From NCBI GenBank assembly GCA_903919615.1, contig CAIXIX010000327.1:1-41942 (forward strand): a stretch of 41,942 nt of DNA. The letters run 5' to 3'. The translations under genes and the position numbers were made by a program. Of this stretch, positions 2,945 through 33,434 are shown piece by piece; the stretch's first letter is position 1; every line of letters starts with the position of its first letter. Source of the DNA: an uncultured Chthonomonas sp. Lineage in GTDB: Bacteria; Armatimonadota; Chthonomonadetes; Chthonomonadales; Chthonomonadaceae. A model generated the notes under the pieces. That model did no database searches, had not been told where the DNA came from, and worked only from the letters and a program-made list of their open reading frames with translations.

Positions 2945-5900
2945 ATGCGGATAGATCGACTAAACCTTCTGGCCTATGGCGCCTTTACAGAACGCGTGTT
3001 AGATTTCGACTCAGAGGTCGATGCGCTCCAAATCGTCTATGGCCCCAACGAGGCTGGCAAAAGCACCGCGCTGCGAGCGATTACAGATCTCTTCTTTGGG
3101 ATACCGATGCGCACGAGCTACAACTTCCTTCACTCAAACTCCGACCTACGAATCTCGGCGCTGTTACGAAGCGATGATGGAGCCTCTATATCGATCACCA
3201 GACTCAAGCGAAACTCAAATGCACTGCAGGACCCCGATGGCAACCCAATTCAGGAAGCCGTTCTTCTGGCAGCCCTGTATGGGACAGGGAGAGAGACTTT
3301 TGAAGCGGCAAACGGTATCGATCATATTCGTCTTGCTGCAGGTGGCAAGGATCTGATCGAGGGCAAAGGCGACCTTGCTGAGAGCCTTTTCCAGGGGGCG
3401 ACCGGTCTCGTTGGCATTCGTGATAAGATCAAAAAGCTCGAATCCGACGCAGACGAAATCTACACTCCTACCGCCAAGAACAAACCTCTGAACACAGCGC
3501 TGAAACAGGTACCGATCCTGCGAAAGCAAGTGAAAGAGAACAGTGAGCTCACAACGAAGTGGGATGCGCTGCGCAAAGAGGTCCAGAAAAAGCAAATCGC
3601 ACTCGATGATGCGGAAAACAAAATCAAGTCTACTCGGAGACGCAAAGAAGCGTTATCGGCATACAGGCACAGCTATGAGGATGTAACACGCCGTTCGCAT
3701 GTGTTGCGCGATCTTGCCGATCTGCAGGGTGTACTCATTCTGCCAACGGATGCCAGGGAGAAGCGCATTCAAGCGCAAACGGACTTCGCAAAGTGCCAGC
3801 GCGAAATCGATGATACGCTAGCTAAACTGGGTAAACGTGAAGAGGCCATTTCCGGCCTCGCTGTTCCTGAACTACTGCTCGCTGCAAAAGCGCAGGTGCT
3901 TCAACTAGAGGCGCGGCTTGGTGCAGATGCGAAAGCTGCACTTGATAAAAGTGAGCTTGAAGTGGAAGAGAGACGGCATCTGCGTGATGCCGCCGAAGTA
4001 TTGCGGGAGCTTCGGCCAGATCTTGAGGTTGGATCTGCGGAGCAACTTCGATTGACTGCCCTGCAGCAGGACGAAATAACGCGACTTGTACGCGAGAACG
4101 AGGCGCTTATAACGCGAACAGATGCTACTGAGCGGGATCTGAAACGGTGCAGCGACTTGTTTGCGGAGCTTGAACCTCAGCTCCAATCTCAATCTGCAAC
4201 TCCAAATACGGCAGAATTACGAAGCGCACGACAGCGTGCCTTAAGAGATGCCGGAATAGAAGAGCAGGTTAAAGAGCTGTTTGAAAAGGCATCCCGGTTT
4301 CAGAACCAACTGCCTGCGCGTGCAGCATCGATGGGCCTGTACACTGGTGAATTGGAACGGCTCGAGTCGCTGCCAATTCCGCTTAACGAGACAATAGCAA
4401 GATTTGAACAGAGCCTAACGCAAATTGAAAGTGCGATTGCTCAGGAAGCGGCTCGCGCGAAAAGCCTGAATGAACAGCTTGAGGCAGCCCGAAATAAGCT
4501 TGCCTCAAAACAGCTGCTTGGCGATGTCGCGACCTCTGCCGATCTGAGCAGCGCCCGAGACTTTCGGGATGGCCGATGGCACGCCGTACGTGCGGCCTGG
4601 CTTCAGAACGACACCACTTCGATTTCGGCGGAAGGGTTAGAGACCAATGCGGATCTCGCGAACGCCTTCGAAACTGCCGAGCGCGAAACGGATGCAATTG
4701 CGGACGCGATCGGCAGGGATTCTGAGCTGGCTGGCGCCGTAAGCCAGATCCGACATGAGATTGAGGATCTCGAGCGCAAAGTAGAACAGGCTCGTGTGAA
4801 AGAGGCTGATGCGCGTCTTCAATTAACCAGCATAACCAGCGAATGGAAGAAATTGTGGGCAGATTGCTCTCTGATACCGCTGCCACCAGCCGAGATGCGA
4901 GCCTGGGCGGCAGCCCATGCTGCGATTGTCACGGAGCTGCGCGAGTATCGAGAGAATAATGCACGACGCGACGCGCTCGACGAAAAATCCGAAGAGCACC
5001 GCTTAGCGCTAATTTCGGCTCTGGCACCCTATCCAGAGGTTCTGATCCCTTCCGGCGCGACACTCGCAGAGCTACTCGAGATAACTGGCACGGTGATTAG
5101 CGACCTGGAACGCACTGAAATAACAAATAAGGAGCGTCAAACCCAGATCGAGAAACTGCTGAAAGAGCGGAGCCAGCATGAGACGGTTAGGTACACCCTT
5201 CACGTGGAGCGCGCCGATCTCGATAGTAAGTGGGATCGTGTGATTGCGCCGCTGGGGATGGCACCTTCGCCAGACTACCGAAATGTGGCGCTGGTTCTAA
5301 AGCGGCTCGATCAGATGTTCGCATATCTGAAAGAATCGAAGGACAAGCGGGATCGGATCAACGGGATCGACCGGGACGCAAGGGACCTGCGCAAGGATTT
5401 TAATGAGTTTGTCGCTGCGGTTTGTCCGGAGTTTGTGGGCATCCGCATTGAGGAGGCGCTTGGGCAGGTTCGTGCGGCCCTGGACTCCGCCGTTGGCGAC
5501 AAGAAAAAACGGGATCTGCTTGCTTCCGAAATCGACGGCCTTCGAGCTGACCTAGAAAGCTTTCAGATCGCTAAGGAGCGCGCCACAAGAACAATCCAGG
5601 AGCTTATCCAGGCGGCGCAATGCAGCGATGAACAGGAGTTAGAGGCAGCAGAAGAGAGTTCGGCTACAGCGAGCCAGCTGAAAGACGAACTAAAGCAGCT
5701 TGAGAATCGGTTGCGTGTTAGCGCAGGTTTACTTAGTGTTGGTGAGTTTTGCGAATTGGCGCTGCAGGAGGACAGATTTCAGCTAGACGATCAGATTGAA
5801 TCGACAGAACGCGAACTGGATGGCCTGGACACAAAGCGAATGCTTCTGGTGGATGAATTGGGTGCTGCCAGGCGCGCTCTTGAGCTTATAGATGGCGGTC

Positions 5901-6460
5901 AGAAGGCAGCAGACAGCGCCATCGCACTAGAGTCTGAACTGGCTAGAGTGCGATCACTCACCGAAGATTACACTCTGCTTAAGCTCTCATGCGAAGTGTT
6001 GCGGCGCGCCATGGAGATGCACCGCCAGCGAAACGAGGATCCGGTTATCCGGCGGGCTGGAGAGCTGTTCAAACAGCTTACGCTCGGCTCATTTACTGGA
6101 ATCGAAACCGATTATGACGAGAAGGATAACCCGAGGCTCGTCGGACTGAGGCCGGAGGGCACACGATCGCGGCGCATCGAGATCGCCGGGATGAGCTCTG
6201 GAACGGCAGATCAGCTCTATCTGGCACTGAGAATTGCCAGCCTCGAACGGCAGCTAGCCGATGGACGCAGGCTGCCTCTCATTGTGGATGATGTGTTGGT
6301 CCACTTCGACGATCAACGTTCGCAGGCTGCACTTGAGGTGTTTGCGGAGCTGGCGAAACGTACCCAGGTGATCTACTTCACGCACCATCAGCGAATTCTG
6401 GATCTTGCCGAATCTGCCGAGGGTTGTCCTCATAAAGTCCATCACCTGGCTATCAGTTAA
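2945..6460 (+). CDS. YhaN-like SMC/Rad50-type AAA ATPase
   Basis: A 1171-residue ABC-type DNA-repair ATPase. Residues 33-41 are GPNEAGKST (Walker A) after an N-terminal RIDRLNLLAYGAF strand typical of YhaN. A long heptad-rich coiled coil fills roughly residues 170-1000. The C-terminal ATPase half has the signature-like GMSSGTADQLYLALRIA, then Walker B LPLIVDDVLVHFDD and the H-loop YFTHHQR. This is the Rad50/SbcC split-ATPase layout; YhaN proteins are somewhat longer than most SMC-like proteins and lack a clear CxxC zinc hook, and I see none here. It follows the YhaO-like nuclease, its expected partner, and by analogy the two would tether and process DNA ends. Its stop overlaps the convergent GH36 gene by four bases. 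Confidence 0.9.
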   Translation: MRIDRLNLLAYGAFTERVLDFDSEVDALQIVYGPNEAGKSTALRAITDLFFGIPMRTSYNFLHSNSDLRISALLRSDDGASISITRLKRNSNALQDPDGNPIQEAVLLAALYGTGRETFEAANGIDHIRLAAGGKDLIEGKGDLAESLFQGATGLVGIRDKIKKLESDADEIYTPTAKNKPLNTALKQVPILRKQVKENSELTTKWDALRKEVQKKQIALDDAENKIKSTRRRKEALSAYRHSYEDVTRRSHVLRDLADLQGVLILPTDAREKRIQAQTDFAKCQREIDDTLAKLGKREEAISGLAVPELLLAAKAQVLQLEARLGADAKAALDKSELEVEERRHLRDAAEVLRELRPDLEVGSAEQLRLTALQQDEITRLVRENEALITRTDATERDLKRCSDLFAELEPQLQSQSATPNTAELRSARQRALRDAGIEEQVKELFEKASRFQNQLPARAASMGLYTGELERLESLPIPLNETIARFEQSLTQIESAIAQEAARAKSLNEQLEAARNKLASKQLLGDVATSADLSSARDFRDGRWHAVRAAWLQNDTTSISAEGLETNADLANAFETAERETDAIADAIGRDSELAGAVSQIRHEIEDLERKVEQARVKEADARLQLTSITSEWKKLWADCSLIPLPPAEMRAWAAAHAAIVTELREYRENNARRDALDEKSEEHRLALISALAPYPEVLIPSGATLAELLEITGTVISDLERTEITNKERQTQIEKLLKERSQHETVRYTLHVERADLDSKWDRVIAPLGMAPSPDYRNVALVLKRLDQMFAYLKESKDKRDRINGIDRDARDLRKDFNEFVAAVCPEFVGIRIEEALGQVRAALDSAVGDKKKRDLLASEIDGLRADLESFQIAKERATRTIQELIQAAQCSDEQELEAAEESSATASQLKDELKQLENRLRVSAGLLSVGEFCELALQEDRFQLDDQIESTERELDGLDTKRMLLVDELGAARRALELIDGGQKAADSAIALESELARVRSLTEDYTLLKLSCEVLRRAMEMHRQRNEDPVIRRAGELFKQLTLGSFTGIETDYDEKDNPRLVGLRPEGTRSRRIEIAGMSSGTADQLYLALRIASLERQLADGRRLPLIVDDVLVHFDDQRSQAALEVFAELAKRTQVIYFTHHQRILDLAESAEGCPHKVHHLAIS

Positions 6461-8490
6461 TGGACTTTCGGTCGGCCTTTCGCTTCGTGGCGCTGCACTT
6501 TCTGCTGTTCGGCACGCCTGATCGTGATTAAGCTGGACGAGGATCCAGTCGGGCAGACCGCCTGTATTCCGCCGAGCATCAGGTCATCGCCCGTAAACAC
6601 ACCCAGGTTGCCCCTGTCTGCATCCTTCACTTCGTAGCTTTCCGTAGACTTCAGGCCGCGAAGTTTGAAATTCATCGTGCGCTCTTTCGCAGCCTCTCGT
6701 CGAAACGCCTGCACCACGCCCTCGCCCGTATCGGACTTATAAAACTCCCATGCGATCCAAGTGTCTGCGGCCAGGCTGTACGGCGTCAGCGGATAGTAAT
6801 CTCCCAGCATGGCAGGCGCAATCTCGCGGCATTCTGCATAGGCACGCTTCTCCATCTCCATATTCGGGCCGGCGAAACCATTACACGGAACATAAAACGA
6901 ACGCGCTCCATACATATCGGTAAACCCAAATCCAGATCCATAGTAGGGTATCCAGGAGGAGATGCCGTAGGTGTGGCCCTGATTGCCAACGATGGCGCCG
7001 TTACCGAACTGGAAATCGCTGCGCAGCAGTGGCACGGCTCGCCGCAGGGTTTCCAGATCATTGCGCCTGCCACCGGATGCGCATGAATCGATCAGCATGC
7101 CGGGATGCCTGCGCCGAAGCTCATCCCAGTAGGCGAGATAACCCTGAACATGCAGATTTTCGCTGATGCCCTGCCGATCCGGCGCATCCTTGTCATCGTT
7201 GCTGCGCCAGTCGTTCAAGGGGTCCATATTGAAATCCTGGCGGTAGAAGTCTATGCCCTGCTCTTTCAGCAGCCCATCGACATGTTCGGTTAGCCACGAT
7301 CGGGCTTCCGGATTCCCCAGATTGAGCAGATGCCCACCAAGCAGCCATTCGGGATGGTTTTTCGCCAGATAGCTCTCTTTCCAGCCGACACGTTCCGGTT
7401 CAAACCAGACGATCAGCTTACGTCCGCTATCGTGAATGGCCTTGCTGATCGGCTTGAACCCCTGTGGGAACCGGACAGGATCCACCTCCCAGGTACCGGT
7501 GTTGGGCCAGTCTCCCGGGTGGGAGTACCAGCCTGCATCCCGCCAGCAGAGGTCGATCGGGATGTGTGCGTCATCCAACCGCTTTAACTCGCGGAACATG
7601 ACATCTTCGCCATCGTTAAAGCCAACGCACAATTGCATCTGCGCCATCGGAGAGGGTGTTTTGTTGCCATCCAGCCGCGGGACATTGTGGGCCAGCATCC
7701 ACCGCCTCCATGCATTCTGTGATGCAGCGACATCCATGCCGGAATAGAACAGCATGGCGATCAGGGGAGATCGAATCTCTTCACCCGGATGGAGAATCAG
7801 GTGAACCTTCTCCTGCCCTGCCGAAATGCGCATTGCGGTGCCAGCGCTGTTGACTTTGAAATTCGCGGCCCACTGACCTGGCCAGCCAATGGCGAGCAGC
7901 ACTCCAGCCTTACCTAACTGGACATTGTAGTAGGGCCAGCCATTGGGGCCATTGGTTGGACGGCCGCCATCGGGAGCAAAGGCATGTGCCGTGCCGGGCG
8001 CAAGGGGAAGATCATAAGGCGCGTAGCCATCTGCAGAGTAGTAATCGCCTCGATGGCAGTGCAGAACGTTGGACGAATCGGCGCTTAGCGCCATATGTGC
8101 GTCGATTGCTTGCAGAGTATCGATTATCTGCGTGTTCGAAGTGCCAGTATTCTTCAGATAGAGGGTCCACTCAACCGCCGGAAAGTCGCTGTAACTTACC
8201 GCTCTGCATCGCACCTCCAGCCCAGTTGCGGCATCATGCCATGTGCGAAGCGTCTCTGTTCGCGACTGATCCAACTTGCGTGTGGTAGTGGTTCCGGGAA
8301 GTTTTGCGAGCAGAGTTGCTGAGGGTGTGGTTCCATACTGAAAACCAAACGGGAGCATCTCGGCATTTGCAGCCAGCAAGCGTTGTTTCACCCACGTATC
8401 GCGCGTCTTTGCATCGGTCCGTTCAGCCGCAAATGCGCCAGATACTACAGATACGGCAGCAACGATCGCGACTAGCAGCAGTTGTTTCAT
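6457..8490 (-). CDS. Secreted GH36-type alpha-galactosidase
   Basis: An exported glycoside hydrolase of clan GH-D. The start at 8490 gives a textbook signal peptide (MKQLLLVAIVAAVSVVSGAFA); an ATG four codons upstream is also possible. An N-terminal beta-sandwich (to about residue 260) precedes a TIM barrel with LCWRDAGWYSHPGDW, LIVWFEPERV, FYRQDFNM (nucleophile Asp near residue 419), LIDSCASGGRRND (substrate-binding Cys/Gly motif) and LLRSDFQFG (probable acid/base Asp near 492). This order is that of GH36 alpha-galactosidases, so cleavage of alpha-linked galactosides outside the cytoplasm is expected; related activities such as alpha-N-acetylgalactosaminidase cannot be excluded. No transporter or sugar catabolic gene is adjacent. 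A palindrome lies 83 bases upstream of the start and may be its operator. Confidence 0.88.
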   Translation of the reverse strand: MKQLLLVAIVAAVSVVSGAFAAERTDAKTRDTWVKQRLLAANAEMLPFGFQYGTTPSATLLAKLPGTTTTRKLDQSRTETLRTWHDAATGLEVRCRAVSYSDFPAVEWTLYLKNTGTSNTQIIDTLQAIDAHMALSADSSNVLHCHRGDYYSADGYAPYDLPLAPGTAHAFAPDGGRPTNGPNGWPYYNVQLGKAGVLLAIGWPGQWAANFKVNSAGTAMRISAGQEKVHLILHPGEEIRSPLIAMLFYSGMDVAASQNAWRRWMLAHNVPRLDGNKTPSPMAQMQLCVGFNDGEDVMFRELKRLDDAHIPIDLCWRDAGWYSHPGDWPNTGTWEVDPVRFPQGFKPISKAIHDSGRKLIVWFEPERVGWKESYLAKNHPEWLLGGHLLNLGNPEARSWLTEHVDGLLKEQGIDFYRQDFNMDPLNDWRSNDDKDAPDRQGISENLHVQGYLAYWDELRRRHPGMLIDSCASGGRRNDLETLRRAVPLLRSDFQFGNGAIVGNQGHTYGISSWIPYYGSGFGFTDMYGARSFYVPCNGFAGPNMEMEKRAYAECREIAPAMLGDYYPLTPYSLAADTWIAWEFYKSDTGEGVVQAFRREAAKERTMNFKLRGLKSTESYEVKDADRGNLGVFTGDDLMLGGIQAVCPTGSSSSLITIRRAEQQKVQRHEAKGRPKVH

Positions 8491-20579: not shown

Positions 20580-21341
20580 TCACTCTGCAGCCTGTAAACG
20601 TATTTTGATTAGCAGCTCATTTAGCTGTTCAGTAACACCTGCAGCCATTTCTGGCAATGCGCTTGCGTCCTTCGCTTCCAGCAGGCAATCGCGCAGTCGT
20701 TCCACCTCCCCGCGGTGGAATGGCACATCGGGCGCGTTTAGCGTTCCGTGCTCTGCGCCGGCCAATTTCATCGCGGTCAGGTCATCGATATAGGGCAACT
20801 TGGCCTCCTCATTCAGTCGCACCAGGTTTGGCTCGACTTCGCCCGTGCGCATCAGATGAATGCCACTTAGAAGTACCCGATAGGTGTAGAGCAGTGGTTT
20901 GACACGGGGAGGATCTTCTTTGACAAACAGCTTTAGCTGGGTGTCGGCAAAGCCGAGATAGTGGAAGGCGTGGTGACGAGTAACGCACTTCCTTGCAATG
21001 GCTTTCAGCGTTTCATGCTCCGGACTTGTGAAAACCACTAACGGTGATAGGATCTGTTCCAGAACGTAGCCGTTGCGCTTGAGCATCAGCCCGAAGAACT
21101 TGGCAACATCGTGGGTCACCAGGTCCATCTCCAAACCTTCACGCACACCCATACGCTCCACGGTTGCAGGTCCGGACTTGAGCCCGACCACCTCTTTCAG
21201 CGGCAGAATGTGAGCGCCGCGCAGATCGAAATCGGAGTCTGGCGAAGGGAAGCCGTACAGATGCGCCCCGCTAATGGTTGCGAATAGCAGCGGGTACGGA
21301 TGATCTGATGCCTGATTATGCAGAATCGTCCATGGCAGCAT
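20580..21341 (-). CDS. RlaP-type nucleotidyltransferase domain protein
   Basis: 253 residues of the pol-beta nucleotidyltransferase superfamily, YcgL/RlaP branch (PF10127). The motif FATISGAHLYGFPSPDSDFDLRG has the helix-turn GSxxYG-type loop and the Asp-x-Asp pair of the active site; a third acidic residue is in LEMDLVTHDVAKF. RlaP proteins are often linked with RNA ligases, suggesting nucleotide addition to damaged RNA, but no ligase is present here. AAGGAGG eight bases before the ATG sets the start. The first 26 bases overlap the end of the small membrane protein gene, so the two are translationally coupled. Confidence 0.82.
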   Translation of the reverse strand: MLPWTILHNQASDHPYPLLFATISGAHLYGFPSPDSDFDLRGAHILPLKEVVGLKSGPATVERMGVREGLEMDLVTHDVAKFFGLMLKRNGYVLEQILSPLVVFTSPEHETLKAIARKCVTRHHAFHYLGFADTQLKLFVKEDPPRVKPLLYTYRVLLSGIHLMRTGEVEPNLVRLNEEAKLPYIDDLTAMKLAGAEHGTLNAPDVPFHRGEVERLRDCLLEAKDASALPEMAAGVTEQLNELLIKIRLQAAE

Positions 21342-21616: not shown

Positions 21617-22489
21617 TTATGAAGTCGTTAAGGTCTTTGGCGGATGTTCTGTGTTTGGCGGGATTTCCTCAAAACGTGATCGTACTGGTAGGGTATCGAC
21701 ATGGGGCAAGTGTGCTTCCACCAGAGCCATCACATCCTCTATCATGCTTTCAAACTCCGAAACGGCCTGGGGAAGAGGCGCAGCGAGGGCAGCAGGGAGT
21801 CGCTCAAGAAAGTCTGTTGGCAGAATCTCCATCATTCTTAAATGGTAAGGCAGCCACTTGTGTCCCGGGTAATACTTGCGGTTCAGCCCGCAGAGAATTG
21901 TAAAAAGTTTGTATGAAAGGGCAGTCAGGTTGCGCCGCACCAACGGGTAATCGTCTCGCTGGGCGAGCATGCGCAGCATCCACGCGGGGTTAAAGTTCAG
22001 ATGCTGCCGCACCATCTCTTCGGCCAGATCGGCGGGGTAGATAGTAGCTCGCTCTTGCCAGCGCCGGACTATCGCATTTCCCTGAAGTGGAACTGCGGTT
22101 CCAATTGCTGAAACGGACATCTGCCTCGATAAATTTGCATCGCATCTAACCACGACGTCGGTAATGATATCATCCATGGTCGAAGTGAGCCAGCGTCCAA
22201 GGTCGATCTTAACGCCATAGTATTTGTAATCCTCACACCATGCCTGAATATCTGTGCTGTATTCGCTTGGGTGCCAATCGGCGGCGCCCAGTTCGTCTGC
22301 TATCATGTGCCTGCGCTCTGCATCAGGCTCGCTGCGCCAGAAAACGGCGAGCTCGATGTCGGAGTATGCATCTGCCCATCCAAGCGCGACTGAACCGATC
22401 AACGCGACTGCTTCTACCTCCGGATTCAACGCGTAATGAGAGGCAACTCGCTCCGCAATATGAAAACGCCATCCGACATGATCAGCCAT
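21617..22489 (-). CDS. Nucleotidyltransferase with DUF4037-like domain
   Basis: 290 residues. The N-terminal active site is VEAVALIGSVALGWADAYSDIELAVFW: a GSxxxG loop followed by the D-x-E pair of minimal pol-beta nucleotidyltransferases, with Asp-to-Glu at the second position. The C-terminal helical part (LSYKLFTILCGLNRKYYPGHKWLPYHL) matches DUF4037-type proteins, which share antibiotic (aminoglycoside) adenylyltransferase architecture. Substrate unknown. An AAGG site precedes the ATG. The gene leads a same-strand group with the small membrane protein (37-base gap) and the RlaP-type enzyme. Confidence 0.8.
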   Translation of the reverse strand: MADHVGWRFHIAERVASHYALNPEVEAVALIGSVALGWADAYSDIELAVFWRSEPDAERRHMIADELGAADWHPSEYSTDIQAWCEDYKYYGVKIDLGRWLTSTMDDIITDVVVRCDANLSRQMSVSAIGTAVPLQGNAIVRRWQERATIYPADLAEEMVRQHLNFNPAWMLRMLAQRDDYPLVRRNLTALSYKLFTILCGLNRKYYPGHKWLPYHLRMMEILPTDFLERLPAALAAPLPQAVSEFESMIEDVMALVEAHLPHVDTLPVRSRFEEIPPNTEHPPKTLTTS

Positions 22490-22759: not shown

Positions 22760-23332
22760 TTGCAACTGAATGAGAAACAACTTGCCGATGGGTTTCGCTC
22801 TGGCGATGCTGGGAGCTTTGAAGCGCTGTACCGTGAATTCGGTCCACGCCTCTATCGCTTCTGTCTACGGCTAAGCGGAGATGTGTCCTGCGCAGAAGAC
22901 CTGACGCAGGAGGTGTTTCTGGCGGCTTTTCGAGGAGCGGACCGCTTCGAAGCGCGCTCCTCAATCGCCACCTGGCTATATCGAATCGCACTGTACAGAT
23001 GGCGCGATGCCCGGGACAAGTCCCGGATCACTACGGTATCTCTACTCGATTCGGAGGCGTCTCTCTCTGCAGATCCGGCGCAGATTGGGTTGAAGAAACT
23101 CGAGCTGGACGCTGCAATGGCAGCGCTACCGGACGGACTCAGATCGGCATTTCTACTGGTTAAGGCCGAAGGCTTTCTCTTCAGAGAGGCTGCCGAGATA
23201 CTGGGGGTGCCTGAAAGCACGCTGAAGTCGAGAGTAGCGCTGGCGACCCGTAAGCTGCAGACACATCTCTCAAAGGATGAGAGTGGCGTTCCGGTACCAC
23301 GGTCCGGGTGTGAGATTGGAGAGATCCCGTGA
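22760..23332 (+). CDS. ECF RNA polymerase sigma factor
   Basis: 190 residues. Region 2 is present as SFEALYREFGPRLYRFCLRLSG then CAEDLTQEVFLAAFRGADRF (2.1-2.2) and STIATWLYRIALYRWRD-like residues (2.3-2.4); region 4 is AALPDGLRSAFLLVKAEGF then REAAEILGVPESTLKSRV (helix-turn-helix). There is no region 1 or 3, as in ECF sigma factors. Start is a TTG at 22760 with GAGGG nine bases upstream; no in-frame ATG precedes region 2. The stop overlaps the start of the anti-sigma gene (GTGATGA), so the two are translationally coupled. Confidence 0.92.
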   Translation: MQLNEKQLADGFRSGDAGSFEALYREFGPRLYRFCLRLSGDVSCAEDLTQEVFLAAFRGADRFEARSSIATWLYRIALYRWRDARDKSRITTVSLLDSEASLSADPAQIGLKKLELDAAMAALPDGLRSAFLLVKAEGFLFREAAEILGVPESTLKSRVALATRKLQTHLSKDESGVPVPRSGCEIGEIP

Positions 23333-24687
23333 TGAAAGTCAACCGACGCTGTGAGCAGGTTCAGTCGAGCCTTTCGCTGCGATCCGCTTCCTCTGTTGAA
23401 GCTCTGGATCCAGGCGTCGAGGCTCATCTGCAATCCTGTGAAGCTTGTTCGGAATTTCGAGCCGGCATGGCTCGGCTGGAATCGGAAATCTCAATGTGGC
23501 GCAATGCGTCTCCCTATCCAGATCTAGAGCAGCGAATCGCAGCATCGCTAATTCCATTGGCAAGTTCTTCTCGTTCGCGTTCGAGCCTACTATGGCTCAG
23601 AGGGAAGCTATACATGAACCGACGATTTGCGATTGGAACGGCAGCTCTACTCGCCATCGCAGCGCTTGCAACGAGCCATCGTACGGTGCAGGCCAACACG
23701 GCGCTGCATCGGATGGGAAATGCGACAAAACATGTTACAAACCTGCATCTTATCGGCTGGAACTGCGAGCTGAAACCAGAGATTGCCGAGCAAGTAGAGG
23801 CCGGTAATGCACAAATCAGTATCATGGATACGATGCCACATCGATATGAAGGCTGGGTCCAAGATGGAAACTGGCGTGAGTCGCAGGATTTTGATTCCAC
23901 TTTATTTAGCGCTGGTAAGGTCTGGGATAATGGCAAGCTCGATCCTGCAAATTCGGAGCCTCCGTTCCTTCTGCTCTCGGCCTTCCGGGCCATAACAGGG
24001 GAAGAACCCTTCGGAAAGCAGACACCTTTCACATGTCACAACCTTGGAGAAGATCGCATCTATGGCATTAATGCGCTAAAGATCCAGGTTGAAAGCAAAA
24101 AACCGAACATGGGTGCGGTTGTCCAGGTGCAGGAGAGACGACTGTTCTGGCTCGATCCAAGTACGTACCTTCCGATAAGAATGGAGGAGTGGCGATATGA
24201 ACATGACCGCTGGGAACTCGATGCCGTTCTCTGGTTTGATTACAATACTCCGGCGCCGAAACGACTGTTTGATCCAGAACAGATCAAGCTGGAACGGCAT
24301 GGTTCTGCCGACAATACAAAACTAGCTGCGGACCAATATCGCCTCACCGCTTCGCAGCAAGACAGATATGCCCGTATTGTTTCCGAATATGTCTCCCGGC
24401 AAACGATAACCCAGTCAGACAAGTCGATGACAAAGGGGGCTCGGGATGCAGCCCTGGTTGCGCTCGGAAGCGAATTGAAATTACAGCTGCGGGGGATCAT
24501 GACCGTGGATCAGCAGCGCCTGTTCGACGACTGGTGGTATGTGGAGCCAAAAACGCTCGAGAAGCTAGCGACACCAGAACAGAGACAGGAGGATGCACAA
24601 TGGCTGAAGCAACAGCGATTGCAGATGCATGCCTGGCTGAACACGCTTGATGCGGAAACTCGGCGGCGAATAGGTCCCACGCTTTAA
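23332..24687 (+). CDS. Membrane anti-sigma factor with LolA/RseB-like outer domain
   Basis: About 451 residues. The cytoplasmic N terminus carries a zf-HC2-type anti-sigma motif (VEAHLQSCEACSEF, His-x3-Cys-x2-Cys) for holding the neighbouring ECF sigma factor. A single membrane helix (FAIGTAALLAIAALATS) near residue 100 follows. The outer part begins with a beta-sheet fold resembling LolA/RseB sensors (MGNATKHVTNLHLIGW, GWVQDGNWRE, RLFWLDPSTYLPIRMEEW, WFDYN), then a helical tail of about 110 residues. GGAGAG before ATG 23332 sets the start. The large outer domain suggests direct sensing of an envelope component. A hairpin terminator lies 30 bases past the stop. Confidence 0.82.
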   Translation: MKVNRRCEQVQSSLSLRSASSVEALDPGVEAHLQSCEACSEFRAGMARLESEISMWRNASPYPDLEQRIAASLIPLASSSRSRSSLLWLRGKLYMNRRFAIGTAALLAIAALATSHRTVQANTALHRMGNATKHVTNLHLIGWNCELKPEIAEQVEAGNAQISIMDTMPHRYEGWVQDGNWRESQDFDSTLFSAGKVWDNGKLDPANSEPPFLLLSAFRAITGEEPFGKQTPFTCHNLGEDRIYGINALKIQVESKKPNMGAVVQVQERRLFWLDPSTYLPIRMEEWRYEHDRWELDAVLWFDYNTPAPKRLFDPEQIKLERHGSADNTKLAADQYRLTASQQDRYARIVSEYVSRQTITQSDKSMTKGARDAALVALGSELKLQLRGIMTVDQQRLFDDWWYVEPKTLEKLATPEQRQEDAQWLKQQRLQMHAWLNTLDAETRRRIGPTL

Positions 24688-24716: not shown

Positions 24717-24744
24717 AGGCACCCGGTGCGATACCCGGGTGCCT
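24717..24744 (+). terminator. Terminator hairpin of the sigma/anti-sigma operon
   Basis: A perfect ten-base stem AGGCACCCGG (24717-24726) / CCGGGTGCCT (24735-24744) with an eight-base loop. GTCCGTTTC follows, so the T tract is poor. It also lies about 100 bases from the convergent gene's 3' end at 24846. Confidence 0.7.
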
Positions 24745-24845: not shown

Positions 24846-25970
24846 CTATTGCCGTGCTCCACTTGCAATCCGCAGTTCCTGAATTTTGCCCAGGAGGGCG
24901 CTGGTGTATCCATCGACTTCCTGCGGGGCGGCTCCAGACGTGCGGAAAGCTTCCCGTATCGCCTCTTGCGGAATGCGGTTGAGCACCTGCTCCACAAACG
25001 CCTTTGCATCGGCTTTGGATACGGTGCTGCAGGCTTCCTGCACCTCCTTAGCGTGCGGCATCGTTTTGCTCGTAGCGAAATCGAAGTGAATCTGGTCGCC
25101 TTTTACCTCTTGGTTCGGTCGGCCGTTATCCCACATCACAAACTTACCTTTCTGGTAATCGCCTAACTTCCAGCGAGTAGGCCGAATACGAAATAGCCCG
25201 GCGCCTTCGTGGTCCTTGCCGAAACCGGTGCCAACATCCTTGTCGTGGTACCACGCATCAAACTGACCGCTCGCGTTCTTTACGTAGTAGATTGCGTGGT
25301 TATCGCGCCCGGTGTCCCAGTTTCCAACCATCACGTCAAAGATTTTGAGCCAGGTAAACTGCGGGCTTTTAGCAATACTATCCGGCAGGTTACTGTCTTC
25401 GTATCCCCACGAGATTGCCGCCGTCGCGTCATCCTCCTTGGCGGTGAACGTAACATCTTCAAACGGGTAGAAGCCGTCGGCGTCCTTCTCAAGTCTGCTG
25501 GCCAAGCGGCTTCGTTTACCGGGGTTCTTAGGATCTCCGGGAGTAAACGCGTCCAGCTTTCCTGACGCTACATAGTATATTTCTCGGGCTCGAAACCCGA
25601 TGGCCCATAGTAAGCGGTTATTTGCGATTTCACTGTGGGATTTGCTATCGTTACCGTTGCCGAATTTCACTTTGTACTTGCGGCCGAGGGCATCCTTTAC
25701 CTCGATCTTCGGAAACGTGGCTTTGATCTCTTCGCGAACGAAGTGGAAAGTTCCGTTCGGAAAAGGCTTCGGAGCACCCGCCGCACTTCCGGGCGAGTAC
25801 GTCATTTCAGGGGCGGTTACCATACGCGAACCTTCCCACATCTTTGGCACAGCGGCTGCCTTCATAGCAGCGGAAGGCCCTTTAGTGCTCTTGTCGCTAG
25901 CATCATCATCTGCGTACGTGTACATTGGGATCGCGCATGCAGCGCATACGGCAAAAACAGCAAATTTCAT
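24846..25970 (-). CDS. Exported protein with HipA/PI3K-like kinase fold
   Basis: About 374 residues with a signal peptide (KFAVFAVCAACAIPMYTYA). Kinase-type landmarks appear in order: GRKYKVKFG with Lys near 102, HSEIANNRLLWAIGF with Glu near 114, VMVGNWDTGRDNHAIYYV with Asp 219 and Asn 224, and WYHDKDVGTGFG with a metal-binding Asp near 245. This Lys/Glu, GNxDxxxxN and DxG pattern is that of HipA and PI3/4-kinase-like folds and related secreted kinases. An exported ATP-using enzyme is unusual, so it may phosphorylate during secretion, use another nucleotide, or bind only. Start at ATG 25970, after AGAGG. It stands alone, with no HipB-type partner. Confidence 0.7.
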   Translation of the reverse strand: MKFAVFAVCAACAIPMYTYADDDASDKSTKGPSAAMKAAAVPKMWEGSRMVTAPEMTYSPGSAAGAPKPFPNGTFHFVREEIKATFPKIEVKDALGRKYKVKFGNGNDSKSHSEIANNRLLWAIGFRAREIYYVASGKLDAFTPGDPKNPGKRSRLASRLEKDADGFYPFEDVTFTAKEDDATAAISWGYEDSNLPDSIAKSPQFTWLKIFDVMVGNWDTGRDNHAIYYVKNASGQFDAWYHDKDVGTGFGKDHEGAGLFRIRPTRWKLGDYQKGKFVMWDNGRPNQEVKGDQIHFDFATSKTMPHAKEVQEACSTVSKADAKAFVEQVLNRIPQEAIREAFRTSGAAPQEVDGYTSALLGKIQELRIASGARQ

Positions 25971-26184
25971 CAATTGCCTCTTCTCAGCAACATTTGCGCC
26001 GCCCGCTTAATCGGGCAAAGCGTAAACTGAGCATTGCCTGCACAGCGCTGCGGATGCTTGGCGCATCAGGCGTTGCTCCGGTCATCATTGAACCAACGCT
26101 GGTGTGACGTGGCTGTGCAATGTTCAGTTCCTTGGCTAGCAGCGCCTGTCGCGGATTCTTATTAATTCATGCGGGAACCGATTG

Positions 26185-26328: not shown

Positions 26329-26622
26329 ATGATAAATGCAGACTTGCTGAATCGAATAGACTTGGCTGACGTCGCTTGTACTCGCGCTCACTATTCACTG
26401 CTTACAGATTCCGAAGCAGCAGAACGAAATTACAGATCCCGCGATATAGGCGGCGCATGGGTGTATGTAGAAACACGCAATGGACAACGCGTGGGACATA
26501 TCTCCATGATGCCTGGATTGCCCGGTTCATTTACCACCGCGCACGTACCGCACGTTTGTCGCAAAGCTAAGTGCCATGAGCAGGAGTGGGATGCCGCAAG
26601 CGGCAATTATCATGATCTTTGA
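26329..26622 (+). other. Possible small or remnant reading frame
   Basis: An ATG frame of 97 codons (INADLLNRIDLADVACTRAH...) directly after the truncated peptidase copy. Its first 65 codons have plausible composition and a TACAAT -10-like site lies 13 bases upstream, but its last third runs antisense to the end of the DUF3592 gene. No family recognised. It may be a truncated orphan gene or chance. Confidence 0.25.
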
Positions 26623-27951
26623 AACGCGAATCTTACCCTCGGCATCTTCTCTTGCCATGGATGGCGCAGCTCTACTGACTTCCGGATTGTTCGGAAGATA
26701 GGTAACCCTAACTGCGCTGCCATCGTTCACCTGCTCGCTCGCCTGTCGAGACACAGAGCTAATGCTGGAGTAGCGCCTGCCATCTACATCAAATGTGTAG
26801 GTAAGAGAAAAGGGCATGCTATTTCGGCCCGTTGCACCAACTTCCGTAACCAGTCCGTTTGTCGTGACCCCACTGATGTCCAAACGCCGCTGCCGCTGCA
26901 GAACATCTTGTCCGTTGTGACGTAAATCAAGGGCTAGACCGACTACTCCAATACCGAACACGACTCCAATGATGCCAAGGCCAATTACGTTCTGGAGCCT
27001 GTTTTGCTTCATTTCTTCCTTTATCACCTGCGGCGCATTCACCTCGACGCGCCCATGTAGCCTGCCCTTCAGCTGCTGAATCAGCCGGTCATAATCGGGA
27101 AGATTGGACGGAAATTTGATGGTGTTCGTAGCGCTCTTGATAGTAGCCCACTCGATTGTTCCCGATCTACCCGTCTCCTCCTTCGTCGTTAAGGATTTTG
27201 CTCGGTCGAACGGAATAAACCGCGTACGAAAGAGGTTCTTATCTGTAAGGCCGGTATCAGTCAGCGTGAATACCTGGGTTGCGTGCCGCAACGCCAATTG
27301 GGCCATGAACAGAGCGCCAAATAAGAAAAACGTGGACATGCCAATGAGTGCAATTGCTGGCGCAGGTGGACCGGAGTGGGGCATCAGAGGCATCGTAAAC
27401 GCAAGGACGGTGCACAATAGGGACATAAATCCTGCGGCAATTGTGCCCGTATCCGTGCCGAACCGGAATGTGTGCGGTTCCTCCATCCGGGTTTTGACGC
27501 CTTCTGGTAAACTTGCTAATTCGGCCTCTACGGCATCATATAGGGTCCGCCTTGCGTGGTTAATGTAACCAAGTTCAGGGTGAGGCAGCGCCATCCGGAT
27601 ACCGTGAACATCAGTCAGCTTTACGCTAGCTCCTTTAGGCGATTCTACGCTGACCAGGTCTCGCCACGCAACCTGCTGCGATCTGCCATTCCAGCCGCGC
27701 TTAATAATTCCATTTTCGTCCAACCGAATTGTGGTGAATGACGTCGCCAGGCCCACCAAACCTGCACACGCCATCCCGCCGAACAGAAGGCCAAGCGGGA
27801 GAGCTATGAGCAACCGCTGGCCCGCAGCGCTTGCATCGGGTGCGCGCATCGCTGGCCCCAGGTAAAAGGCTCCGAATGCTCCGCCAAAGACCACGACCAT
27901 CAACACAAACAGGGTTCGGGTCCACCTATTGCAACAGTAGTCGGTAGGCAT
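26527..27951 (-). CDS. Membrane protein with DUF3592-like domain
   Basis: About 474 residues. Near the N terminus two membrane helices (RTLFVLMVVVFGGAFGAFY and LLIALPLGLLFGGMACAGL) are followed by a PH-like region (TTIRLDENGIIKRGW), another helix pair around residue 190-240, a soluble part, a helix (NVIGLGIIGVVFGIGVVGL), then the DUF3592 signature (VTTNGLVTEVGATGRN...LTYTFDVDGRRYSS...VRVTYLPNNPEVSR) and a last helix. I choose ATG 27951, with GGAG nine bases upstream; the frame is open to 28164 but that part is arginine-rich and low-complexity. Unknown function; DUF3592 proteins are membrane proteins of no assigned role. It lies between the two copies of the 106-bp repeat. Confidence 0.7.
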   Translation of the reverse strand: MPTDYCCNRWTRTLFVLMVVVFGGAFGAFYLGPAMRAPDASAAGQRLLIALPLGLLFGGMACAGLVGLATSFTTIRLDENGIIKRGWNGRSQQVAWRDLVSVESPKGASVKLTDVHGIRMALPHPELGYINHARRTLYDAVEAELASLPEGVKTRMEEPHTFRFGTDTGTIAAGFMSLLCTVLAFTMPLMPHSGPPAPAIALIGMSTFFLFGALFMAQLALRHATQVFTLTDTGLTDKNLFRTRFIPFDRAKSLTTKEETGRSGTIEWATIKSATNTIKFPSNLPDYDRLIQQLKGRLHGRVEVNAPQVIKEEMKQNRLQNVIGLGIIGVVFGIGVVGLALDLRHNGQDVLQRQRRLDISGVTTNGLVTEVGATGRNSMPFSLTYTFDVDGRRYSSISSVSRQASEQVNDGSAVRVTYLPNNPEVSRAAPSMAREDAEGKIRVSKIMIIAACGIPLLLMALSFATNVRYVRGGK

Positions 27952-28261
27952 CAAGTTCATCTCCATTACTATCGGGGCAGACTTCAATGCCGCTCTGTTC
28001 ACAGCGGCGACTCTATAACACGACTGAGACGTGACTCCCGTTTGGTTTGTTCGAGAAACTTTGGAGTCAGGTCGAGGGAGTCTCTGAAGTCGATAGAGTC
28101 TTTGAGGTTTTCGAGGAGTTAAAATTCTATAAAGACAATGAGGTACAACCGTATCTCGCTTCATGCAAGTGGTGCTTTATCGGATCGTTAGCCCTGTAAA
28201 AGGAACCACTACCTGAATGTCACCATTCTTAGTGGCAGGCTGGGCAGGATCGGACAGCTCC
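27952..28261. other. Spacer with a periodic GAGTCT-type tract
   Basis: 310 bases between two minus-strand genes. At 28078-28120 the plus strand shows a degenerate nine-base periodicity: GAGTCTCTG, AAGTCGATA, GAGTCTTTG, AGGTTTTCG, AGGAGTT. Similar tracts of GTCTATAGAG type occur between genes in several environmental phyla. No gene or promoter seen. Confidence 0.45.
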
Positions 28262-29690: not shown

Positions 29691-32600
29691 CTATTGTGTT
29701 GGCGCCGAGACAGCAGTGATGGGACGGTGTAACCGGCTACAATTGGAGGCGGCAATGGCTCTCCGTTGCGTGTAGTCTTTGTTCGTTGGATGCACTTTAA
29801 TCAACTCATCCAGCAGTGCGACACACTGAGACCAGGCGCCTGCGTGCTCGCAGCGGTCGACGTCTTGTAGGATAAGATCTGTCCATGCGGTAGCTCTCGG
29901 CGGGACCGGTACGGCGTCCCACGAACAGACAGAGCTATCCCAGCGAGTCATAATGATCCGCTTATCGTCCGAGGAGAAACAGATTGTGGCGGCGGGATAT
30001 ACTTGCCGACCGCGCATGCTCATGAGCTGATCGCCTGTAGCAGCGTCATATACTGTTGCCGCCCCATCCATATCTCCCGTCACGATGCGCTTGCCATCGG
30101 ACGAAAAGGCTGCCGCTGGAAGCATGTTGGTTTCGCCTTTAAGCTGATACAACTGCACACCTATTTCGGCGTCCCACACATTCTGTGTCACCCACATCAT
30201 CTTGCTCTCACGATGGTCTATTCTCGTGACAAGGTATTTGCCGTCCGGTGAAAAGCAAGCGGCCGCGATAACCCCGGATTGAGCCATAAGGCGGCATAGG
30301 ATGGCTCCCGTCGCCAGGTCTGCGATTACAGCCCTCCCGGATAAGTCCGAATAGTAGAGCCGGTTTCCATCCGGTGCGATCAGAACATTTTGTGTGTAGA
30401 ACTTCTGGCCGCCAAACGTTCTCAAAAGTTTGCCTGTTGTGGCGTCCCACACCTGGCCAACTCCTCCGCAGCTCGTTACAACACGGTTGGAAGAGTACGA
30501 TACGTCTACCGACGACACAATAGTCTTAAATCCTGTAAGGTTTAGCAAGCATTTGCCGGTATCGGCGTCCCATACTTTTGCCGTACTGTCATGGCCACCC
30601 GTTGCAATGCGCTTGTTGTCCGGTGAAAAGCGCACAGAGTCTATCATTCCCACGTGTCCTTTGAACTCGCGAACAGTCCTCCCGGTAGATAAATCGCAGA
30701 CGCGGAGTCCTTTCCTGTTTGTGCCTGCCACTATATAATTCGGAAACGCAGAGGTGCCATCCGCGTTATCCGCGCCGCGCTGCAAAATATCGTGTACCTG
30801 CTCAGTCGTCGTGTCCCATACTTTCACTACTCCGTCTATGCTTCCGGAAACTATTTGGCCGCTATCAGCACAAACGGCCACAGCACAAACGGCTTCGTCG
30901 TGGCCGACAAGTTGCGTCAGGCTCTTTCCAGACGCGATATCCCAAACCTCCGCCGAATGATCCTTGCTGCCAGTTACTATCCGACGTCCATCCGGGCAAA
31001 ATGCTATTGACGTTATCGGACTGGAGTGACCAACGAGTGACGTGATTTCCGTGCCATTTTTTGCGTCGTATATGATGGCGGTCTGTGGTCCGTCTATGGC
31101 GGCGATTCGTGCGCCATCGGCCGAGTAGGCGACCTTAGCTAATATTGGCACATGCCCCTTCAGGGTCAATAGGACTCTACCCGTGACAGCATCCCAGACA
31201 AACGCACTTCGGCCCTCCGATCCAGCGATTACACGTGTTCCATCCGGAGAGAAGCTTATCGAAGTCAGCCGTTCCACTGCGCCGTTTAGCGTAACCAATT
31301 CCGCGCCTGAACCCGTATCCCAAATCTTTGCCGAGTTGGCGCCGTCAGTAGCCGCAACTCGCCTGCCGTTTGCCGTGATAGCAACATGAGCTGTGAAATA
31401 ACCGGCGCCTAGTGACGAGTCGCGAGACTTCGGTCCGAGTATTCTCTGCTCTTTGCCGGAAGTGGCGTCCCATACGGTTAGTGTATGGTCGACGTCTCCT
31501 GTCACGATTCGTCTATTGTCTGCTGATATTGCCACGGACTGGATCCAGCTTGGACGCGAGTTTAACGACGGGATGGTACTCGCATGTTCCGTAAGTGTTA
31601 ACACGCACGCGCCGCTCAATGCATCAAAAACCCGTGCAGTACCGTCATCGCTTGCCGTTATAATGTGTCTGCCGTCTGCGGATACAGCCATCGCGTGCAT
31701 TTCGTCGGCATGGGCCTTTATCGAAAGTCTATCCCTGTGGGTCATACCATATATGTAACTCCACTCAAACCCACGCTCTGGATCGTTCCGATGCTTATAC
31801 AGAATCTCTCGGGCTCGGCTGTATCTGTTCGAAGCGCAGGCCTCCCTTGCCAGGTTCATGTCGGCTATATAAAGAAGGTGTCTCGATGTCTGTTCTGCGG
31901 CCCGGGCCAATTTGAATTGTGAAACTGCGTTCGCTCTTTCCCGCGTCGCAACATTGCGGGCGATAGTAGCTGAAGTTAGCCTTTCGTGTGCAAGAGCCAG
32001 ATTACGTGCGGCCTCTTCGGCCCTTGCGGCAGCCTCGATCGTCTTCTCGTCGGCTAACTTTGCTTTGGCGTCGGCCCTGTTCTTCTCGCTATTTGCGCGT
32101 TTGGCACTCGCGTCAGCCAAAATCAGGGCGTTCGTTGCGTTGTCAGCGTTTTGTTTAGATTCGGCAGCACGCCGGTTGGCTAGAGCTTCGTTGTCCGAGG
32201 CTCTCTGTGAACTCACCGAGGCCTTGATGGCCAATCCTGCAACCACCGAAATTACAAGAGTGCTTATTGCCGTGGCAATAGCAACGCCGCGTCGAAATGC
32301 AATTCGCTGGCGCCGAAGCTCGGCTTCTGGCTTGTGTGCCCGCACCCATGCCATGTCGAAAACGCGTTCATATATGCGATTGCGAGCACAAAGTACCCCG
32401 CCGTTGGCACGCACTGCGCCACTAAGCTTAAGCACTGCACACAGAGGATTAGTCTCATCATCGATCACTCGTTTGCCGGTAAGCACCCTGGCGTACATAT
32501 CCAAGAGTGGGGTGAGATCCACCTCACTTCGCAGCAGCCGATTACGCACAAACGCCAGGTTGTCGTCCGTTTCGCTCGCCTGGTGGGTTAGAAATAGGTG

Positions 32601-33434
32601 CGTGGTTACTCGGTCCACATCCGCTTCTGACCACACGGTTGGGTCACCGGCAATCTCACGGCACAACCGCTGCGTTAAGTACGGGTGCCCGCCTGTCCAG
32701 TACATTACACGGTCAAGCAACCGCTGCGCGGCTGTGTGTGTATCAAATCTAAATGCAATACCAGTGGCAAGCGGCTTCGCTTCCGCGGGCGTAAAATCTT
32801 GGATGTCGATTCGCGTGCCGATGTTGAAGGGCGATATTCGTGTGTCCGTAATTAACTCTGAGGGCGTCGCGGTTCCCAGGAGACAAAAGACAAGCCTGGT
32901 CAAAGATGGATCCGTAGCACGGGCAACGTATAACTGGCGGATTGCAGAAAAGAACTCATCCGTTGAAAACGAAAGGCTGCGCGTAACGTCAATCTCGTCG
33001 ATGAATATAATGATTGGTGACTCGGCTGCACCGAGCGCCACATCGTGGATGGCAGCAAATAGGCGCTGAAGCGGGCTGAGTTCGTGGTTAGTTCGGCGGA
33101 AGTCTTGAAACTGGTCTTGCAGGTTAAGCGCTCGTCCAATCTCGCTGTGTAAACCTGCGTACCACTGTTCGAGAGTTAAATTACTGCCACCAAATCGAGT
33201 TAAATCCAGGAAGACAACGCGGTATCCATCCTTCTTGAACTTTTCGACTGCTCGAACGCATAGCGACGACTTTCCCATCTGCCTGCTGTTTAGTATGTAG
33301 CAGTACTCGTGGTTACTCAGCGCACGATTCAGGCTGTCATCAGCACTGCGTGTGACGTATGATGGTGCGGAGGCCGGAAGGGTGCCTCCAGTCGTATAAA
33401 ATGAATCATACGGGTCGATCTCAGCCGCACTCAT
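29691..33434 (-). CDS. STAND-like AAA ATPase with TM helix, coiled coil and WD40 propeller
   Basis: 1247 residues. The N-terminal part (1 to about 330) is the AAA-like domain PF14516: FYTTGGTLPASAPSYVTRSAD, Walker A NSRQMGKSSLC (residues 49-59), Walker B IIIFIDEIDV and FCLLGTATPSEL (sensor). A membrane helix (VAIATAISTLVISVVAGLA, near residue 380-400) follows, then an Ala/Glu/Arg-rich coiled coil of about 130 residues, then roughly twelve or more WD40 blades (repeated H-x-SPDG-RI-x-TGS-D-x-A-x-VWD). This is the layout of large signalling NTPases of cyanobacteria and Armatimonadota: the propeller senses, the NTPase switches. No effector domain (TIR, caspase, nuclease) is fused and none is adjacent. 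The start gives the family's usual N terminus. Confidence 0.88.
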   Translation of the reverse strand: MSAAEIDPYDSFYTTGGTLPASAPSYVTRSADDSLNRALSNHEYCYILNSRQMGKSSLCVRAVEKFKKDGYRVVFLDLTRFGGSNLTLEQWYAGLHSEIGRALNLQDQFQDFRRTNHELSPLQRLFAAIHDVALGAAESPIIIFIDEIDVTRSLSFSTDEFFSAIRQLYVARATDPSLTRLVFCLLGTATPSELITDTRISPFNIGTRIDIQDFTPAEAKPLATGIAFRFDTHTAAQRLLDRVMYWTGGHPYLTQRLCREIAGDPTVWSEADVDRVTTHLFLTHQASETDDNLAFVRNRLLRSEVDLTPLLDMYARVLTGKRVIDDETNPLCAVLKLSGAVRANGGVLCARNRIYERVFDMAWVRAHKPEAELRRQRIAFRRGVAIATAISTLVISVVAGLAIKASVSSQRASDNEALANRRAAESKQNADNATNALILADASAKRANSEKNRADAKAKLADEKTIEAAARAEEAARNLALAHERLTSATIARNVATRERANAVSQFKLARAAEQTSRHLLYIADMNLAREACASNRYSRAREILYKHRNDPERGFEWSYIYGMTHRDRLSIKAHADEMHAMAVSADGRHIITASDDGTARVFDALSGACVLTLTEHASTIPSLNSRPSWIQSVAISADNRRIVTGDVDHTLTVWDATSGKEQRILGPKSRDSSLGAGYFTAHVAITANGRRVAATDGANSAKIWDTGSGAELVTLNGAVERLTSISFSPDGTRVIAGSEGRSAFVWDAVTGRVLLTLKGHVPILAKVAYSADGARIAAIDGPQTAIIYDAKNGTEITSLVGHSSPITSIAFCPDGRRIVTGSKDHSAEVWDIASGKSLTQLVGHDEAVCAVAVCADSGQIVSGSIDGVVKVWDTTTEQVHDILQRGADNADGTSAFPNYIVAGTNRKGLRVCDLSTGRTVREFKGHVGMIDSVRFSPDNKRIATGGHDSTAKVWDADTGKCLLNLTGFKTIVSSVDVSYSSNRVVTSCGGVGQVWDATTGKLLRTFGGQKFYTQNVLIAPDGNRLYYSDLSGRAVIADLATGAILCRLMAQSGVIAAACFSPDGKYLVTRIDHRESKMMWVTQNVWDAEIGVQLYQLKGETNMLPAAAFSSDGKRIVTGDMDGAATVYDAATGDQLMSMRGRQVYPAATICFSSDDKRIIMTRWDSSVCSWDAVPVPPRATAWTDLILQDVDRCEHAGAWSQCVALLDELIKVHPTNKDYTQRRAIAASNCSRLHRPITAVSAPTQ

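Follow-up and report, generated by a model that had tools for sequence, protein, structure and literature searches.

The closest described systems for the gene studied here are kinases of an atypical fold class, and each resembles its product, P0001, in part. CtkA, a kinase of Helicobacter pylori (PDB 3akk/3akl/3akj), is the best fold match and covers residues 66-374 of the P0001 model; the two share 12% identity, CtkA gives no significant match in a PDB sequence search, and P0001, unlike CtkA, carries a predicted signal peptide and an added N-terminal segment. The animal secretory-pathway kinases Fam20C and Fam20A align over 251-252 residues from residue 34 of the model, and their secretory location is also the one predicted for P0001. 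P0001, however, is bacterial, and Pfam Fam20C does not match it, nor is that model among the families listed for the 87 members of our first family alignment, A1. HipA and HipT are alike in fold and in the order of their active-site motifs, and we take the spacing of HipA D309/N314/D332 to resemble that of D219/N224/D245 in P0001. Against this, P0001 is predicted to be exported, has no HipB-like partner among 10 ORFs scanned, and matches neither HipA_C nor HipA_2 at E <= 1; neither model is among the families listed for the A1 members. CotH offers the likeness of an outer-layer kinase with the D/N/D residues, and of a DUF4956 neighbour in relatives of P0001. A passage in PMC12189002 states that CotH keeps the equivalents of PKA D166/N171/D184 and resembles Fam20C. 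The Pfam CotH model does not match P0001, is not among the families listed for the A1 members, and finds nothing in the whole genome that carries P0001.

Closer in sequence is an acidobacterial family with the pattern NNWDLKxxNN ... SDLGATFG. P0001 has in common with it a full-length profile match, the K/E/D/N/D residue set and an export signal, and differs from it in an identity of at most 35%, a long branch, a host from another phylum and the absence of the usual (frequent, not universal) PLD and ABC neighbours.

The P0001 gene and its predicted active site

P0001 is the 374-residue product of an ORF at 24846..25970 on the minus strand (ATG at 25970, stop at 24846-24848) of the window, by which we mean the whole stretch of 41,942 nucleotides analysed here, from an uncultured Chthonomonas sp. 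The original prediction placed in this frame a signal-peptide-bearing protein with Lys, Glu, Asp/Asn and Asp kinase motifs; the ORF is real when read from the sequence, and all of the motifs are present in the order proposed. A Shine-Dalgarno-like AAGAGG, read from the bases, stands 6 bases 5’ of the ATG (25977..25982, minus strand), and a hairpin scan places a terminator-like hairpin of 10 pairs, 8 of them G-C, 3’ of the gene (24717..24744, minus strand); terminator-like sites around P0001 are no more frequent than in shuffled sequence.

Conservation of the putative active site was read from a second alignment, A2, of 124 sequences (85 ORFs, 38 further ones and P0001, with near-copies and some others omitted); all codons given here lie on the minus strand. 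The putative ATP lysine K102 (YKVKFG, 25665..25667), the putative catalytic aspartate D219 (NWDTGRDN, 25314..25316) and the putative DFG-like metal aspartate D245 (DKDVG, 25236..25238) are invariant in 124 of 124. The putative salt-bridge or metal glutamate E114 (HSEIANN, 25629..25631) is Glu in 120 and Asp in 4, and N224 (25299..25301), the putative metal asparagine of NWDTGRDN, is Asn in 122 and Gln in 2. G247 is also kept in all 124, and the invariant columns are K102, G125, D219, D245 and G247 only. P0001 has DVG at D245 where most family members have DLG, and its loop reads G-N-W-D-T-G where the usual family loop is N-N-W-D-L-K. The Asp/Asn pair, which the original prediction had singled out as decisive, is thus kept in the homologues.

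A pattern scan (NNWDLK(D/E)xN) supplied 85 of the 124 rows and so fixes D219 and N224 in them; we therefore counted the 39 other rows separately: K102, E114, D219 and D245 are each kept in 39, and N224 in 37, with 2 Gln. In the 26 rows without a match to the pattern, the Lys, Glu and both Asp are kept in 26 and the Asn in 24. By itself the loop motif is poor evidence, NWDxxxxN occurring 10 times in the genome of P0001 at the DNA level against 5 for a reversed control; it is the conservation in the 39 rows fetched without the pattern that lifts the P0001 motif above chance.

Predicted fold

An AlphaFold2 model of P0001 built on A2 reached a pLDDT of 85.3 and a pTM of 0.86; a single-sequence model (pLDDT 33.6) was useless. 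Foldseek against the PDB returned CtkA as the top match (3akk_B, E 2.8e-4, probability 1.00), and all five matches below 0.001 are CtkA, followed by 7vkb (a bacterial kinase complex), Rio2, Fam20 and PI3-kinases. By VIA-align, CtkA again leads with a Z of 14.0 (rmsd 4.0, 232 residues aligned), ahead of Fam20C/A (13.1), Fam20A (13.0), PI4KII alpha (12.4), HipT (11.4), HipA (10.8), actin-fragmin kinase (10.2) and PI3K (only 7.6). With kinases at the top of both PDB lists, the structure prediction and fold search proposed beforehand point to a kinase fold, and on this model P0001 takes its place among the atypical kinases, alongside CtkA, Fam20, PI4K and HipA. The original prediction of a HipA/PI3K-type kinase motif set is supported by this fold, the nearest matches being CtkA and Fam20 and not PI3K. 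Among the PDB fold matches listed there is no CotH, SelO or POMK structure, which is no evidence of absence. Phage proteins of 273-1479 aa head the list of viral folds, and two of them are named kinase or transferase.

Profile comparisons by hhalign gave a probability of 0.7 at best against a HipA_2 set and 2.3 against a CotH set, neither of them significant; in a forced alignment to a HipA_2 protein, the Lys, the Glu and both Asp fell on or beside their counterparts. Since sequence profiles reach neither group, we file P0001 in the kinase fold class and not with HipA or CotH.

A family centred on the Acidobacteriota

P0001 has no match in Pfam or NCBIfam at E <= 1, chance-level weak matches only in PHROGs and PADLOC, and nothing by tblastn against plasmids and phages at E <= 1. 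Its peptide patterns found nothing in genome contigs and viral contigs, and its loop pattern had 0 matches in viral contigs. Used as a single query against 291 genomes of its own phylum, it gave, besides itself, only chance-level matches. Several candidates were rejected: an HMG-box match of P0001 (E 0.076) and a methionine-synthase match of the A1 profile (E 0.11), both from PDB sequence searches, are chance; two viral-contig matches to the family-loop pattern are unrelated; and a stretch of 54% identity over 26 aa in its own phylum (L011) runs out of frame across a LacI-type gene.

The P0001 loop resembles that of certain hypothetical proteins of Acidobacteriota, which carry NNWDLKDxNN and SDLGATFG, and the NNWDLK(D/E)xN scan of genome contigs returned 112 stretches, mostly from Acidobacteriota. 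We extracted 115 ORFs and kept 88 by length and score; A1 holds 86 of them, two cut by contig ends being omitted, and P0001. A family profile built without P0001 scores it at 139.9 bits over residues 5-369 (E 5.3e-43, 116 sequences searched); this profile contained one non-family ORF (L108, Christensenella), which is absent from A1 and A2. As a single query, P0001 reaches 48 of 396 Acidobacteriota genomes, an even draw from a larger group, at E <= 1e-3 (best E 1.3e-31, at most 35% identity). The A2 profile reaches at least 35 of 199 at E <= 1e-6, 20 of them at E <= 1e-30, a lower bound because at most ten candidates were scored per genome. Each of 10 genomes reached via family loci has 1 to 4 family matches. 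Kinase models of Pfam and NCBIfam recognise none of the 87 A1 members at E <= 1, and our literature search returned no paper recognisable as being on this family. Judged from its sequence, P0001 is an outlying member of a large family that has no name, consists mostly of predicted exported proteins and is found mainly in Acidobacteriota. We rate the family as new, though its fold class is known, and it has no Pfam or NCBIfam model.

More distant relatives match the A2 profile at E 2e-41 to 1e-13, several of them with loop variants such as NHDDTRSQN with LIDFG, which is DFG-like. Longer kinase-fold relatives of this kind occur in Acidobacteriota at L235-L243 (for example L236 783-2540, L240 1621-3267 and L237 408-3110), where the frames span 384 to 901 aa and contain D-x-x-x-x-N and IDFG/LDFG motifs. 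A Pfam scan of L236, L239 and L240 gave no kinase match over the cut-off, HipA_2 in L236 falling below it at E 0.015. We regard L235-L243 as a wider unannotated superfamily.

Predicted export of P0001 and its relatives

The predicted Sec signal peptide of P0001 occupies residues 1-21 (25908..25970, minus strand), as judged from the sequence, its hydrophobic core and its flank charges. The N-terminus, MKFAVFAVCAACAIPMYTYA-DDD, has an N-flank of +1, a hydrophobic core of 2.71 (12-residue mean), an acidic C-flank of -2 and an A-ending cleavage-like site between TYA and DD, and so reads as a Sec signal peptide, in line with the signal peptide that had been proposed. It had also been suggested that the signal peptide should be sought in homologues: a strong hydrophobic core lies within the first 45 residues of 112 of the 124 members, as against 1 of 35 neighbouring PLD protein N-termini. 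Of 118 members, 108 have a positive N-flank, and 108 have an AxA-like site. A core of 1.6 is reached by 116 of 123 real N-termini and by 51 of 123 shuffled ones; the start codons of the 85 earlier rows are the first Met of the frame, and those of the 38 later rows were picked by hydrophobicity, which favours the export-core result. In 70 of 118 members, however, the core is followed by net positive charge, a less than ideal arrangement for a Sec substrate. At L185, L198 and L199, on a branch near P0001, a transmembrane-like helix is followed by a net charge of +3 to +5; these N-termini resemble uncleaved anchors and would place the kinase domain in the cytoplasm.

Gene neighbourhoods of the relatives

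We examined 113 neighbour loci in Acidobacteriota, 99 of them with a called family ORF, which form the basis of the counts within 500 nt; eight loci judged non-family (L046, L060, L085, L108, L130, L133, L135 and L143) were omitted. All counts should be read as minimum values, since many of the loci are short and longer antisense ORFs mask some of the family genes; the related genomes among them are not independent. A PLDc_2 protein is encoded in 58 of 113 loci, within 500 nt of the family gene in 48 of 99, and an ABC exporter (ABC_membrane+ABC_tran) in 40 of 113, within 500 nt in 32 of 99. Across 13 genomes there are 12 close PLD homologues, nearly one each; for 9 of them a family gene is no more than about 250 nt away. 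A calcineurin-like metallophosphoesterase occurs in 24 of 113 loci and a tyrosine/dual-specificity phosphatase in 14 of 113; with 2 of 99 and 3 of 99, respectively, within 500 nt, these phosphatases are near the family gene but mostly not adjacent to it. Export cores are present in 20 of 23 metallophosphoesterases, 13 of 14 tyrosine/dual-specificity phosphatases and 0 of 25 PLD proteins. A 200-aa protein without assigned identity recurs in 20 loci.

A DUF4956 membrane protein is encoded in 13 loci, and no more than 500 nt separate it from the family gene in 13 of 99. According to a passage in PMC7112168, DUF4956 accompanies CotH-like kinases and a polyphosphate polymerase beside Pel genes in Gram-positive bacteria. 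In three contexts of close relatives of P0001 (L207, L209 and L210, in G575, G535 and G590), the next gene encodes an FHA protein (L207 7465-10152, L209 3085-5667, L210 9613-12141, all on the minus strand) with two FHA domains, MshEN, a membrane helix and a DUF3616/phytase-like domain, and in two of the three a zinc ribbon; the domains were read in all three and Pfam-tested for L209. FHA domains read phosphothreonine. The FHA protein was not seen in context loci L208, L211 and L213.

Two further loci may be mentioned in their own right. A contig labelled Verrucomicrobia (L084/G296) has a family gene adjoining an ABC exporter; mis-binning of G296 is possible, as its family protein (L161) falls among Acidobacteriaceae in the tree. 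Terriglobus roseus (G291) has the PLD and family-gene pair twice, at about 2754206-2756291 and 3214721-3216806, with equal scores and about 460 kb apart, which is probably a recent duplication.

Genomic setting and origin of P0001

P0001 is convergent with an ECF sigma factor gene and its overlapping downstream gene (22760-24687, plus strand), the latter, as we read its position and N-terminus, anti-sigma-like; it follows a gene for a DUF3592/PH-domain protein (26527-28164, minus strand). The ORFs beside P0001 include no phosphatase, PLD, ABC or FHA neighbour. The suggestion that it lacks a cytoplasmic antitoxin agrees with the absence of a HipB-like gene among the 10 nearby window ORFs scanned. 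Elsewhere the window encodes an RlaP-type RNA-repair nucleotidyltransferase (20580-21341, minus strand) adjoined by a Polbeta/DUF4037 nucleotidyltransferase (21617-22489, minus strand), a fusion of an AAA_35 ATPase with a long stretch of WD40 repeats that may be a sensor (29691-33434, minus strand), and two weak DUF6880 matches on the one contig (12476-14314 and 36085-37284, both minus strand).

A second, distant family member of 678 aa is encoded on contig C356 of the same genome (G000; L176:1585-3618, plus strand), next to PLD (3569-4657, minus strand) and ABC exporter (4706-7363, plus strand) genes. Its N-lobe reads SSGPFASR at the position of E114, where the Glu seems to be missing, and in the tree it pairs with a 698-aa frame of L238.

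The A1 profile matches only G000 among 291 genomes of the phylum. Two observations speak against assembly contamination: the first 20 kb of the window match G001, a genome of the same genus, in 6 places at 69-76% DNA identity, and the tetranucleotide profile of the window correlates best with two G001 contigs (0.585 and 0.677), as against 0.168-0.387 for nine Acidobacteriota loci. Since the contig belongs to the genus and the family is confined to G000 among these genomes, horizontal acquisition, undated, is the likely source of the gene. In the tree, P0001 groups with L177-L180, L183, L185, L186, L192, L198 and L199 (SH-aLRT 93) on a branch of 2.45 changes per column, a length that makes its placement by this quick method unsure; together with the atypical G-N-W-D-T-G loop, the long branch suggests that P0001 may have drifted.

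Proposed function and alternatives

We favour a reading of P0001 as an exported, metal-dependent kinase that phosphorylates a component of the envelope, more likely a protein than a glycan or lipid, and would give this reading a probability of roughly 0.4. What we infer about export, activity and acceptor differs in strength. That P0001 is an exported protein of kinase fold is highly probable, and the original idea of an envelope-targeted kinase-fold enzyme draws support here from the predicted export signal and the modelled fold; that it is an active phosphotransferase is likely; that the acceptor is a protein is a tentative proposal. Sec would export P0001, which would fold outside the cytoplasm as a two-lobed atypical kinase of the CtkA/Fam20/HipA class. 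The task of holding and positioning ATP would fall to K102 and E114, D219 would serve as the catalytic base that activates the acceptor, and N224 and D245 would bind metals. The phosphate would most likely be passed to a Ser/Thr of an envelope protein, by analogy with Fam20C in the secretory pathway and CotH in the spore coat. The phosphatase, FHA and DUF4956/CotH associations seen in relatives are what inclines us towards an envelope protein as acceptor, ahead of a glycan or lipid. Counting against this reading, the periplasm is usually held to lack ATP, and no source of it is evident here. So do the absence of phosphatase, PLD, ABC and FHA neighbours at P0001 itself, its possible drift, the non-significant profile comparisons with CotH and HipA_2, and the positive charge behind the core in many members.

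Alternatively, an exported P0001 may phosphorylate a glycan or lipid head group, as do Fam20B, POMK and PI4K, and so decorate an envelope polysaccharide or lipid, with the PLD-like protein, ABC exporter and secreted phosphatases of its relatives forming the rest of the pathway. The structural scores of PI4KII alpha (Z 12.4) and Fam20 (Z 13.1) are consistent with this, as are the PLDc_2 and ABC exporter genes of 58 and 40 of the 113 loci and the close spacing of 9 of 12 PLD homologues. The PLD protein, however, looks cytosolic, given its lack of export cores (0 of 25), and so need not share a substrate with the family kinase; the FHA and tyrosine/dual-specificity phosphatase neighbours point to a phosphoprotein; and P0001 itself stands without PLD, ABC or phosphatase neighbours. 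We think a glycan or lipid acceptor rather unlikely.

It is also conceivable, if improbable, that the exported kinase fold performs other chemistry, such as AMP transfer or glutamylation, or is a nucleotide-sensing pseudokinase. Kinase folds with an intact Asp/Asn/Asp set can do other chemistry, as in SelO and SidJ, and the want of a known ATP supply outside the cytoplasm here would fit such a role. For a pseudokinase, the nearly absolute retention of K/E/D/N/D across 124 divergent members would be unexpected. There is a slim chance that the N-terminus is an uncleaved anchor with the kinase domain facing the cytoplasm: the helix and following positive charge of L185, L198 and L199, in neighbouring branches, fit an N-out/C-in topology, but P0001 has the reversed charge pattern (+1/-2) and its cleavage-like site, and positive N-flanks and AxA-like sites prevail in the family as a whole. 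That P0001 is a growth-arrest toxin of the HipA type whose antitoxin escaped recognition, which the fold would allow (HipT Z 11.4, HipA Z 10.8), is scarcely credible given the signal peptide, the lack of HipA_C/HipA_2 matches and the lack of a HipB-like gene among the flanking ORFs scanned.

Implications

Returning to an exported kinase that acts on the envelope, one may speculate about a wider scheme, which we regard as doubtful on present odds. The Acidobacteriota, and a few other bacteria by horizontal spread, would possess an extracytoplasmic phosphorylation system in which an exported kinase of the new family is opposed by exported dual-specificity and calcineurin-like phosphatases and coupled to an ABC exporter, a PLD-like enzyme, DUF4956 and, in some, a two-FHA membrane protein; P0001 would be a stand-alone exported member in another phylum. 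To our knowledge, there is little documentation of phosphorylation beyond the bacterial cytoplasm. The recurrence of the family, its strict active site and its recurring neighbours, exported phosphatases among them, make the question of how such phosphorylation is powered testable in cultured soil bacteria such as Terriglobus. With the P0001 family, the Fam20/CotH/HipA fold group would gain a further bacterial branch, and the bacteria that carry it may be phosphorylating a target that lies beyond the cell interior.
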